Of a stretch of 64,000 nt of DNA, positions 11,976-50,903 are shown piece after piece; positions within the stretch are counted from its first letter, which is position 1, and each line of letters opens with the position of its first letter. The stretch comes from Agrobacterium tumefaciens (GTDB lineage Bacteria; Pseudomonadota; Alphaproteobacteria; Rhizobiales; Rhizobiaceae), in NCBI RefSeq assembly GCF_017726655.1, contig NZ_CP072309.1:1360501-1424500 (forward strand). Direction: 5' to 3'. Under the pieces are notes generated by a model. That model was not told where the DNA came from. It saw nothing but the letters and a program-made list of their open reading frames with translations, and ran no database searches. The position numbers and the translations under genes were made by a program.

Positions 11976-12491
11976 TCAGTTGATCGTGAAAGCCGTGCGT
12001 AGAAGGTTGAGCTGTGCCTGGACGCTGTTCTCGTTGTCCGGCACCTTGGCGGCTTCGGACGGGCGATAGATTTCGCGGTCAAGCAGGGCAACCCGGTTCT
12101 GCAGGCGCAGCGAACGCTCGATCAGATCACGGAAGGATTCCGGCAGGTCGTTCCAGCCTGGCGCATTCCGGTCAACATTGAAGCTGTCGAGGCGTACCTT
12201 GTTCTTTTCACTCAGAACCTGGTCGCGCGTCATTTCGCCATTGTTGACGGCGCGCTGCAGAAGAAGCCACGATGCCATCTGCATCAGTCGCGTTGTAAGA
12301 CGCATCGATTCTGCAGCATAAAGAACTGACGCCATACGTGGCAGAACCTTGGAAGCGGTGCGGCCTGCACCGTCGAGATAGCTGGCCGTTTCCTCGACCA
12401 AGGTCATGCCTTCGGTATAGAGGGTCTTGAACTGGTTGGAAGCAGCCGCGCGACCCGCAAAGCTAATGGTATTTAAAACCTGTTCTGACAT
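11976..12491 (-). CDS. DUF1465 family protein
   Basis: A 171-residue, mainly helical, cytoplasmic protein found in alphaproteobacteria. Family-like features are the N-terminal SFAGRAAASNQFKTLYTEGM segment, the central MRLTTRLMQMASWLLLQRAVNNGEM and the C-terminal RNRVALLDREIYR-like region. The function of DUF1465 is unknown. The start at 12491 is chosen over an ATG at 12530 because AGGGA lies about nine bases upstream and the protein then begins MSEQVLNT. A TTAA-N7-TTAA box lies about 116 bases upstream, suggesting CtrA control. Confidence 0.85.
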   Translation of the reverse strand: MSEQVLNTISFAGRAAASNQFKTLYTEGMTLVEETASYLDGAGRTASKVLPRMASVLYAAESMRLTTRLMQMASWLLLQRAVNNGEMTRDQVLSEKNKVRLDSFNVDRNAPGWNDLPESFRDLIERSLRLQNRVALLDREIYRPSEAAKVPDNENSVQAQLNLLRTAFTIN

Positions 12492-12606: not shown

Positions 12607-12621
12607 TTAAAGAAGGGTTAA
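12607..12621. promoter_or_regulatory. CtrA-like box (TTAA-N7-TTAA) upstream of the DUF1465 gene
   Basis: TTAA at 12607-12610 and again at 12618-12621, seven bases apart, the spacing of the CtrA recognition core. On the minus strand it reads TTAACCC first. It lies between a candidate sRNA terminator and the DUF1465 gene, which it may control. Confidence 0.5.
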
Positions 12622-12653: not shown

Positions 12654-12679
12654 AAAAAAAGAGCCGCGAAAGCGGCTCT
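12654..12679 (-). terminator. Rho-independent terminator of the candidate sRNA (or of the DUF1192 transcript)
   Basis: On the minus strand a perfect 8-bp stem (AGAGCCGC with GCGGCTCT) and a four-base loop run directly into seven T residues. It lies 214 bases beyond the DUF1192 stop codon, so it could also end that operon. Confidence 0.85.
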
Positions 12680-12752
12680 CAAGGTAAAACAGGGAGAAAA
12701 ATCAGACCAATTCGCCGTATGGAGAAGATGCCTGAGGTCCAGAAGAACTGGA
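12654..12752 (-). ncRNA. Candidate trans-acting small RNA with its own CtrA-box promoter
   Basis: No protein frame occupies this interval. On the minus strand there is, in order, a TTAA-N7-TTAA box (12792 to 12778), 16 bases, CTATAC as a -10 element (12761 to 12756), and a transcript that would start near 12752. Its first hairpin is GTCCAG/CTGGAC with a five-base loop. A pyrimidine-rich single-stranded part follows (CTTCTCC and TTTTTCTCCC), able to pair with Shine-Dalgarno sequences. It ends in a perfect GAGCCGC/GCGGCTC terminator with seven T residues. The length is about 97-99 nt. The size and CU-rich region recall rhizobial cell-cycle sRNAs such as EcpR1, but identity with it is not established. 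Confidence 0.5.
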
Positions 12753-12777
12753 CATGTATAGTAATCTCTCAGAAAGC

Positions 12778-12792
12778 TTAATTTTTGGTTAA
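12778..12792 (-). promoter_or_regulatory. CtrA-like box (TTAA-N7-TTAA) at the candidate sRNA promoter
   Basis: TTAA at 12778-12781 and 12789-12792 with seven bases between. Read on the minus strand it is TTAACCAAAAATTAA and overlaps the expected -35 region of the CTATAC -10 element at 12761-12756, the arrangement seen at CtrA-activated promoters. Confidence 0.55.
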
Positions 12793-12891: not shown

Positions 12892-13083
12892 TCACGAGCG
12901 AAACAGGTTCTCCGCCGCCTCCCTGCCGGCAGACTTCTTCTTTTTCTCGTCTTCGAGTCGGGCAATCTCCGCCTGCAGAATTTCGATGCGATTGCTCAAT
13001 TCATCCACCGATAGAAGGCTGAGATCGCTGCCGATCTCGTGTGCTCGCGGCTTCTGCGGACGATCATCATCAAAGAGGCTCAT
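12892..13083 (-). CDS. DUF1192 family small protein
   Basis: A 63-residue protein with a DUF1192-like layout: MSLFDDDRPQKPRAHEIGSD, then LSLLSVDELSNRIEILQAEI, then a charged coiled-coil end. The family is restricted to alphaproteobacteria and has no assigned function. Its start overlaps the stop of the MFS gene by four bases (ATGA arrangement), showing translational coupling. Confidence 0.88.
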   Translation of the reverse strand: MSLFDDDRPQKPRAHEIGSDLSLLSVDELSNRIEILQAEIARLEDEKKKKSAGREAAENLFRS

Positions 13084-23530: not shown

Positions 23531-23688
23531 TGCGTTCTGCGCTTCCCGACAGGAACCACAATCCCTGGGGCCATACTCGATCCAAAGGGAGCTGTCCCTG
23601 GCCAGTCCCGTGGGGCTGGACACACGGTGCCCACCTACTTTTGTAGGCACCCAGGATCGTAACTCTCCATCGGTCGCCGTGGAACGCA
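23531..23688 (+). ncRNA. ssrS: 6S RNA
   Basis: 6S RNA binds the housekeeping RNA polymerase holoenzyme as a promoter mimic in stationary phase. The 158-nt interval follows zapA directly. Its two ends pair: TGCGTTC (23531-23537) with GAACGCA (23682-23688). Internal arms such as CCCTGGGG, AAAGGGAGCTGTCCC, and GTGCCCACCTAC/GTAGGCAC form the long stem with a central bulge known for rhizobial 6S RNA. The 5-formyl-tetrahydrofolate cyclo-ligase gene, the usual 3' neighbour of 6S RNA, lies downstream, but here a CNNM/CorC gene stands between. Open frames across it on both strands are not real genes. Confidence 0.9.
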
Positions 23689-23753
23689 CTTCAGGCTTCG
23701 GATCAAACCGGTGCTTTTTCCATTTCTGATATAGTCGACAGTGATTTTTCATG

Positions 23754-48568: not shown

Positions 48569-48587
48569 TTAATCGGGACTTAACCAT
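48569..48587 (+). promoter_or_regulatory. Full CtrA consensus box upstream of the outer-membrane protein gene
   Basis: TTAA (48569-48572), seven bases, then TTAACCAT (48580-48587): an exact match to TTAA-N7-TTAAC, extended to CCAT. It lies about 80-97 bases before the start codon at 48666, a usual position for an activator near the -35 region. Confidence 0.7.
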
Positions 48588-49669: not shown

Positions 49670-49675
49670 ACGGCG

Positions 49676-49720
49676 TCAGGACACCTCTCCCTAACGAGAG
49701 GCGCCTATCTGAAAGGGTAG
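49676..49720 (+). ncRNA. serC leader RNA motif (two hairpins before serC)
   Basis: Immediately before the serC start there are two adjacent hairpins. The first is CCTCTC paired with GAGAGG around CCTAAC (near 49684-49701). The second is CTATC paired with GGTAG around a TGAAAG-type loop (49706-49720) and contains the AGGG of the ribosome-binding site. Position and shape fit the serC motif described upstream of serC in alphaproteobacteria (Rfam), whose ligand, if any, is not established. Folding of the second hairpin would hide the ribosome-binding site. Confidence 0.65.
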
Positions 49721-49724
49721 TTAA

Positions 49725-50903
49725 ATGACAGATCTCGTGAAGCCGGACGTTCGTCCGGGCAATACGCATTTTTCCTCTGGTCCCTGCTCGAAGCGCCCCG
49801 GTTGGTCGCTAGATGCTCTCTCCGATGCACCGCTCGGTCGCTCGCATCGCGCCAAGGTTGGCAAAGCCAAGCTGAAGCAGGCCATCGATCTCACCCGTGA
49901 AATTCTCAATGTTCCCGCCGATTATCGTATCGGCATCGTTCCTGCATCCGACACCGGCGCTGTTGAAATGGCGCTCTGGTCGCTGCTCGGTGAACGTGGC
50001 GTCGATATGCTGGCCTGGGAAAGCTTCGGCGCTGGCTGGGTCACCGACGTTGTCAAGCAGCTGAAGCTGAAGGACGTTCGCAAGTTCGAGGCCGATTATG
50101 GCCTGCTGCCGAACCTTGCCGACGTCGATTTCGACCGTGACGTGGTCTTTACATGGAACGGCACGACCTCGGGCGTTCGTGTTCCCAACGCCGATTTCAT
50201 TCCCGCCGACCGCAAGGGCCTGACCATTTGCGACGCCACATCCGCGGCGTTTGCGCAGGACATGGACTTTGCGAAACTCGACGTCGTCACCTTCTCTTGG
50301 CAGAAGGTTCTGGGCGGCGAGGGCGGTCATGGCGTCATCATCCTGTCGCCGCGCGCCGTTGAGCGTCTGCTGAGCTATGCCCCTGCCTGGCCGCTGCCGA
50401 AAATCTTCCGCATGGTCTCCGGCGGCAAGCTGATCGAAGGCATCTTTACCGGCGAAACCATCAACACGCCGTCCATGCTCTGCGTTGAAGATTACATTGA
50501 CGCGCTGCTCTGGGCAAAGAACCTCGGTGGCCTCAACGCGCTGATCGGCCGTGCTGACGCCAATGCCAAGGTTATCTACGACTTCATCGAGAAGAACGAC
50601 TGGATTGCCAATCTGGCCGTGAAGCCGGAAACCCGCTCCAACACGTCCGTCTGCCTCAAAATCGTTGATCCCGAGGTACAGGCGCTCGATGCGGCCGCGC
50701 AGGCAGATTTTGCCAAGGGCATCGTCGCCTTGCTCGAAAAGGAGAATGTCGCCCTCGATATCGGCGCTTACCGTGACGCACCGTCCGGTCTGCGCATCTG
50801 GGCCGGCGCGACCATCGAGACGGCGGATATGGAAGCCGTCATGCCCTGGCTCGCCTGGGCGTATGAGACGCAGAAGGCAACGCTTTCCAAGGCTGCCGCC
50901 TGA
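49725..50903 (+). CDS. serC: Phosphoserine aminotransferase
   Basis: A 392-residue PLP enzyme making 3-phosphoserine from 3-phosphohydroxypyruvate and glutamate. It is of the alphaproteobacterial/archaeal type: [38 protein letters not shown] and the PLP-lysine segment [16 protein letters not shown]. Translation starts 5 bases after a leader hairpin that includes the Shine-Dalgarno sequence, so initiation may be regulated. serA follows after 85 bases; together they carry out the first two steps of serine synthesis. Confidence 0.96.

Follow-up and report, generated by a model that had tools for sequence, protein, structure and literature searches.

We found that the gap between a DUF1192 gene and rcdA in Agrobacterium tumefaciens houses a real and old small RNA (sRNA) gene, which is known in relatives of this bacterium. 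We posit that it probably specifies a free-standing, trans-acting sRNA of about 100 nt, with its transcription timed by CtrA and its targets engaged by a single-stranded linker; in this proposal, the CtrA control, its sign and the mode of targeting are what we infer. The sequence, structure, conservation, synteny and CtrA-type box of the locus are direct observations. The features concerned, with positions in the window (the whole 64-kb stretch of DNA that was analysed), are:

12892..13083, minus strand: DUF1192 gene, upstream of the sRNA (PF06698, 82.7 bits)
12778..12792, minus strand: sRNA promoter box of CtrA type, TTAACCAAAAATTAA, located about -39 to -25 relative to the probable start (sequence and conservation)
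12761..12766, minus strand: -10 element GATTAC at the conserved place, GATTGT in Sinorhizobium meliloti (alignment)
12654..12753, minus strand: sRNA, ortholog of sm84/SmelC671, with a predicted start at 12753 (folding z of -5.0, genus-wide conservation and the 100-nt RNA of S. meliloti, PMC2873474)
12738..12752, minus strand: hairpin 1, UCCAG-UUCUU-CUGGA (folding and per-sequence pair check)
12702..12735, minus strand: stem-loop 2, UCAGGC...GUCUGA (folding)
12681..12701, minus strand: single-stranded CU-rich linker UUUUUCUCCCUGUUUUACCUU (folding and alignment)
12654..12680, minus strand: intrinsic terminator GAGAGCCGC-UUUC-GCGGCUCUU with a U-run (terminator finding, folding and alignment)
12607..12621, minus strand: second CtrA-type box TTAACCCTTCTTTAA, upstream of rcdA and followed by a conserved CTTGCG at 12599-12594 (conservation)
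11976..12491, minus strand: rcdA (DUF1465), adaptor of CtrA proteolysis, with ATG 12491 favoured over TTG 12530 (NF051867, 212.7 bits against a cut-off of 170; PF07323)

The first-pass annotation had described a compact RNA of about 97-99 nt starting near 12752, with a first hairpin, a CU-rich single-stranded part and a terminator. Folding and alignment confirm all three elements and a compact structured RNA of about 100 nt, with the correction that its most likely start, G12753, lies one base off. This start is predicted by homology: if the last T is taken as its 3' end, the 100-nt RNA of S. meliloti would begin at the A before UCCGG, which is equivalent to G12753. For the 99-nt RNA, the predicted fold has an energy of -33.5 kcal/mol (z = -5.0; 0 of 200 shuffles equally stable) and comprises hairpin 1, stem-loop 2, a 21-nt single-stranded linker and the terminator, in this order, with the terminator stem running from 12680 to 12659 and the T-run ending at 12654 on the minus strand. 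All five pairs of hairpin 1 form from the first base in 34 of 36 Rhizobiaceae loci (1.56 in shuffles under the same rule) and in all 36 when the start is allowed to shift by one (shuffles 2.63), and relatives display compensatory changes in pair 2 (C-G to U-A) and pair 4 (A-U to G-C). The CUCCCUGUUUUACC part of the linker and the core of the terminator stem are invariant across the 36 aligned Rhizobiaceae loci. In other families the linker reads GACGCCUCCCUGUU and is preceded by hairpins of differing sequence, which were found per sequence in 33 of 33 loci, a count made without a control. Consensus folding by RNAalifold gave 17 pairs on alignment A1, none with a compensatory change, and zero structure on the wider alignment A3, where gaps misplace or split the stems; the stems were therefore sought sequence by sequence. 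A coding RNA was rejected, as the 99-nt transcript displays, by reading, no ATG and only short frames. The suggestion of a gene-like layout without a protein is supported, in the form of an sRNA gene having its own CtrA-box promoter and terminator.

Conservation of the interval, the absence of which was to count against the first-pass reading, extends from all 39 genomes of the genus, our own included, to far beyond it. A model built from the transcript alone, without the promoter, on 36 Rhizobiaceae loci (R1) had matches at E <= 0.01 in 130 of 297 genomes from the order, and an RcdA match accompanies 24 of the 25 best-scoring loci from outside Rhizobiaceae, several of which are of one genus. 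From the upper part of the list of these 130 genomes we hand-picked 50 (49 of other families and one of Rhizobiaceae), all of which have rcdA; it lies downstream of the RNA on the same contig and strand in 48 and within 600 bases in 46. Conversely, a sample anchored on RcdA and chosen without regard to the RNA (the best 80 of 572 loci, mostly Rhizobiaceae and non-independent) has a match to the RNA model just upstream of rcdA in 78 loci; of the two misses, L180 is truncated to 123 upstream bases, and in L195 the RNA precedes rcdA with a score below the threshold. At the class level, the Rfam model RF02356 matched 30 of 289 genomes at E <= 0.001, with 13 above its cut-off, and R1 matched 12 (three from the same order) of 29 RcdA loci at E <= 1, pointing to a family that is old and far from universal. 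A DNA search within the family (145/199) was not used as an ortholog count, with many matches covering only the linker and terminator. A weak second match to the sRNA model in our own genome, outside the window, lies near a sub-threshold group I intron match (L225:434-638, 37.2 bits against 50).

The TTAA-N7-TTAA box that the first-pass annotation read on the minus strand is present at 12792-12778 and spans about -39 to -25, standing in place of a -35 element. Its CTATAC is likewise there (12761-12756, 16 bases after the box) and is kept in Agrobacterium-type rows of the alignment, but not in most other genera; the conserved -10 is instead GATTAC at 12766-12761, with the variants GATTAC, GATTGT and TATTAC across the alignment. 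A promoter scan found no E. coli-type sigma-70 promoter at the locus. Exact TTAA-N7-TTAA sites number three in the window, where 0.15 would be expected; the DUF1192-rcdA gap holds two (12778-12792 and 12607-12621), and the third is at 48569-48583. In the 36-locus alignment the conserved block starts at the box, the sequence further upstream being unalignable, and the box is exact in 28 of these Rhizobiaceae loci, with one mismatch in 7 and two in 1. Among the 78 RcdA-anchored loci, it is exact at the fixed place (-39 to -42) in 53 and has at most one mismatch in 71 (0.01 and 0.39, respectively, in mononucleotide shuffles). An exact box within 80 nt upstream of the RNA was recovered in 54 of the 78 (dinucleotide shuffles 0.69), with none at -160 to -80, and in a scan of spacers 2-13 a spacer of 7 leads with 54 loci, followed by 12 (12 loci) and 3 (8 loci).

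No exact box occupies the fixed place in 25 of the 78 loci, and more than one mismatch was seen there in 7, comprising one with an exact box further upstream, two of Stappia with a one-mismatch box further up, two with two mismatches and two with none. In L196 and L198, the one-mismatch box lies further up, as the model match begins inside the RNA; no box was found upstream of the RNA in L183 and L188. For loci of other families, a 105-base stretch was read in the 21 with a recognisable terminator pattern, and the box there is exact in 17, has one mismatch in 3 and two in 1; these are raw counts without shuffles, and four of the 25 loci (L068, L072, L080 and L089) were left out as the terminator pattern failed. 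An exact box lies near the RNA in 5 of 12 class-level loci.

The box also persists where rcdA is elsewhere: it is exact in all five loci without an adjoining rcdA that were read, namely L216-L218, with the RNA about 41-45 kb from rcdA, L077, with rcdA on another contig, and L220, from a genome without an rcdA match at E <= 0.001 (others at the class level include G708, G801, G601, G715 and G748). Therefore, the box belongs to the RNA, and we regard its persistence away from rcdA as the strongest sign that it serves the RNA. As judged by eye, in the class-level genome of L216 a DUF1192-like ORF stays before the RNA (L216:1063-1407) with rcdA ~41 kb off, and in L077 the boxed RNA adjoins a pyruvate phosphate dikinase-like ORF instead of rcdA (L077:1501-1632). 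A TTAA-N7-TTAA conserved over the -35 region is what is expected of a CtrA-regulated promoter, and we predict CtrA control of the sRNA on this basis. Taken as comparative evidence for a putative CtrA-linked transcription of the sRNA, these patterns are strong. The earlier proposal of an sRNA driven by a CtrA box thus holds with regard to the promoter, the action of CtrA on it being the predicted part.

The second box of the gap, at 12607-12621, is absent from the first-pass account. It lies between the terminator and rcdA and is exact in 76 of the 78 RcdA-anchored loci (shuffles 0.5). The rcdA start is more likely ATG 12491 than TTG 12530, because the resulting N-terminus and ribosome-binding site (RBS) are common to the orthologs. 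In S. meliloti, RcdA is essential and required for correct CtrA proteolysis, and CtrA ChIP-seq gave a signal in the rcdA promoter region, yet rcdA was unchanged upon CtrA depletion (PMC4433202); the terms sRNA, small RNA and SMc06875 are absent from the main text of that paper. A scan for CtrA motifs in this organism was directed at the regions preceding protein-coding genes (PMC3616915). Multiple start sites, together with possible CtrA sites, are on record for rcdA (atu3742) from three agrobacterial lineages (PMC10469942). The published CtrA signal and the start sites credited to rcdA may, by our reading of the locus, come partly from the sRNA promoter.

The RNA is orthologous to one that has been described in S. 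meliloti. In strain Ak57 (L032), blastn found it at a sole place in the record, with 79.7% identity over 88% of the query (99 aligned bases) and the order DUF1192 > RNA > DUF1465. For sm84/SmelC671 the published position is between SMc03988 and SMc03989, on the same strand as both, and L032 has this arrangement along with the ~100-nt homology. That its neighbours are SMc03988/89 of strain 1021 and the RNA IgR 15/sm84 is a strong though unproven match of tags to genes, made in Ak57 by following gene order and orientation outward from the 6S RNA; the count came out one gene short, the gene left of 6S is oriented unlike its printed entry, and 6S lies 1.3 kb closer to the RNA than it does in 1021. 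No published link between SMc03989 and rcdA was found in the open-licence full-text literature. The existence of the RNA in S. meliloti and the binding of CtrA at the rcdA promoter region there have been demonstrated by others. As sm84 (IgR 15, Valverde 2008), it was given a predicted sigma-70 promoter, a Northern band of ~80 nt, which is shorter than the predicted RNA, and array signals under six stresses (PMC2573895). As SmelC671, it measured 100 nt by RNA-seq (PMC2873474). Relatives of SmelC671 were reported from Rhizobiaceae, Brucellaceae, Phyllobacteriaceae, Bradyrhizobiaceae and Methylobacteriaceae, including ReC71 in Rhizobium etli, and none appears among the five sRNAs that the same paper lists as verified in A. 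tumefaciens (PMC3927594); a review table enters SmelC671 without a promoter class (PMC7143759). Our RNA shares with sm84/SmelC671 (SMc06875) and ReC71 the orthologous place, the length of ~100 nt, the strand order, the terminator, the linker and hairpin 1, and the S. meliloti copy carries the CtrA box; there is no difference in kind, with hairpin 1 and the loops varying in sequence.

The Rfam search that had been suggested did return a family at the place, RF02356 (BjrC1505), which aligns end to end with the RNA plus its promoter (12799-12654), but at 36.5 bits against a gathering score of 50. Given this sub-threshold score, we claim orthology with BjrC1505 members rather than Rfam membership. 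The gathering score was passed in 15 of 18 scanned other-family loci at the R1 place, 14 of them with rcdA downstream. Two loci of Rhizobiaceae included in that scan both fell short of it. In Rhizobiaceae, UUUUCUCCCUGUU replaces the GACGCCUCCCUGUU of the model, and stem-loop 2 differs too. Positions 1 to about 45 of RF02356 look like the CtrA-box promoter included as if it were RNA. The sm84/SmelC671 and BjrC1505 RNAs appear to be one family, with the window copy as a diverged branch. The window has two further RNAs, a 6S RNA at 23531-23689 (plus strand, 78.9 bits) and a serC leader at 49674-49725 (plus strand, 61.3 bits).

Among functionally characterized RNAs, CcnA of Caulobacter crescentus is similarly non-coding, with a CtrA site predicted in the promoter and putative activation by CtrA (PMC8959179); being transcribed at the replication origin, it is a precedent for the control logic and not for the family. 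AbcR1/2 and MmgR likewise display CU-rich unpaired anti-Shine-Dalgarno motifs (PMC7143759), but belong to other loci without shared membership, the mmgR model RF00519 being weak here (22.0 bits against a gathering score of 41). GspR was rejected, as its locus is SMc03844/45 (PMC5928217). The first-pass annotation was reminded of EcpR1, also a rhizobial sRNA of similar length with a cell-cycle context. EcpR1, however, is SmelC291, downstream of divK-pleD and beside rpmG (PMC4414408, PMC12403871, PMC7143759), the 9 Rfam matches recovered at our locus up to E 10 include no family of that name, and the neighbours here are DUF1192 and rcdA, as for the sm84/SmelC671 ortholog, leaving this identity with practically no chance of being correct. 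EcpR1 represses gcrA and dnaA through its loop 1; of these two, gcrA was the one for which pairing of the linker studied here was computed, and it gave no signal (see below).

One alternative is that the RNA is a prematurely terminated rcdA leader, i.e., an attenuator in which CtrA would start transcription at the upstream box and readthrough of the terminator would feed rcdA. That the RNA precedes rcdA, with contig and strand in common, in 48 of the 50 hand-picked order-level genomes (within 600 bases in 46) would suit such a device. Nevertheless, in 76 of 78 loci a conserved boxed promoter belonging to rcdA follows the terminator, the folds computed include no alternative anti-terminator, and the RNA retains its box and shape at a distance from rcdA of about 41-45 kb (L216-L218) as well as in a genome that has rcdA on a different contig (L077). 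As the RNA and box persist away from rcdA, we rejected the leader as the main reading and deem it very unlikely. A different alternative concerns the sign of control: CtrA might repress the sRNA promoter, such that the presence of the RNA coincides with low CtrA levels (G1-S, stationary phase or stress). The overlap of the box with the -35 region, the derepression of A. tumefaciens dgcB and Atu3318 by mutation of their CtrA boxes (PMC7003649) and the array signals of sm84 under six stresses (PMC2573895) are in its favour, whereas no E. coli-type promoter usable without an activator was recognised at the locus and the putative CtrA control of CcnA is positive (PMC8959179). Repression is hence conceivable but unlikely, and activation by CtrA remains our preferred reading.

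With respect to targets, the linker looks like an anti-Shine-Dalgarno sequence, a kind of motif common to many sRNAs. The idea that its CU-rich segment acts on cell-cycle mRNAs found no backing in pairing with the mRNA starts of ctrA (median rank fraction 0.56; 28 of 30 fetched loci usable) or gcrA (0.39; 20 of 30 usable), neither of which gave a signal against 185 background starts. A genome search for the linker complement recovered 11 sites off the locus against 8 for a reversed control, i.e., no clear excess; one such site (L206) is at the start of an ORF that by eye resembles a choline/betaine-type binding protein. The rcdA RBS (GAGCAGGGA) is a weak target candidate, limited to Rhizobiaceae. 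Pairing with it could constitute a feedback, in which CtrA promotes the sRNA, the sRNA represses RcdA and CtrA thereby stabilises itself. Our own rcdA RBS pairs with the linker at -20.9 kcal/mol, a value that 2 of the 185 background starts (one of them perhaps rcdA) equal or surpass, and at z -2.9 against flank-shuffled linkers. Across 74 rcdA orthologs, nearly all from Rhizobiaceae, the mean z is -1.25 with 16 below -2, as against +0.47 and 2 of 185 in the background. The orthologs in this statistic are non-independent, and the Shine-Dalgarno core makes up much of the match; moreover, the signal is gone in 33 loci outside Rhizobiaceae, each paired with the linker of that locus (mean z -0.19; 3 below -2), and the RNA is kept where rcdA is distant. 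We accordingly consider this feedback quite unlikely. The U-run is compatible with an Hfq-dependent trans-acting sRNA.

We therefore return to a free-standing, CtrA-timed sRNA, which would be the Agrobacterium-type member of one order-wide family that has gone under unconnected names (sm84/SmelC671/ReC71 and BjrC1505). In this model, CtrA~P on the TTAA-N7-TTAA box over the -35 region would time transcription of the sRNA in the cell cycle, most likely by activation in the late S/predivisional phase. The transcript would stop at the strong intrinsic terminator before rcdA, a gene predicted to be transcribed from a CtrA-box promoter of its own. Base pairing between ribosome-binding sites and the invariant single-stranded linker (CUCCCUGUU, or CGCCUCCCUGUU in other families) would lower the translation of several mRNAs. 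No link between the sm84/SmelC671/BjrC1505 RNA and CtrA was found in the open-licence full-text literature. A bolder version, which we hold to be doubtful, makes the sRNA an unrecognised node of the CtrA circuit in Rhizobiales and beyond, driven by CtrA, partly behind the ChIP signal and distal starts of rcdA, and in Rhizobiaceae repressing rcdA translation, so that CtrA boosts its own stability.

The cell-cycle link drawn by the first-pass annotation is stronger than could then be known with regard to the rcdA neighbour and the second CtrA box, but does not extend to pairing of the linker with ctrA or gcrA; it rests on the promoter and the neighbour. The sRNA adjoins the cell-cycle gene rcdA and apparently answers to CtrA, the master regulator whose breakdown is under RcdA control. 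The formerly separate names sm84/SmelC671 and BjrC1505 are hereby joined as one rcdA-tied family, and an sRNA without a known function gains a testable regulator. The sRNA promoter could also account for the binding of CtrA near rcdA in S. meliloti despite the lack of an rcdA response to CtrA depletion. If the CtrA control is true, this family would add to the alphaproteobacterial cell cycle an arm of riboregulation that is widely conserved.
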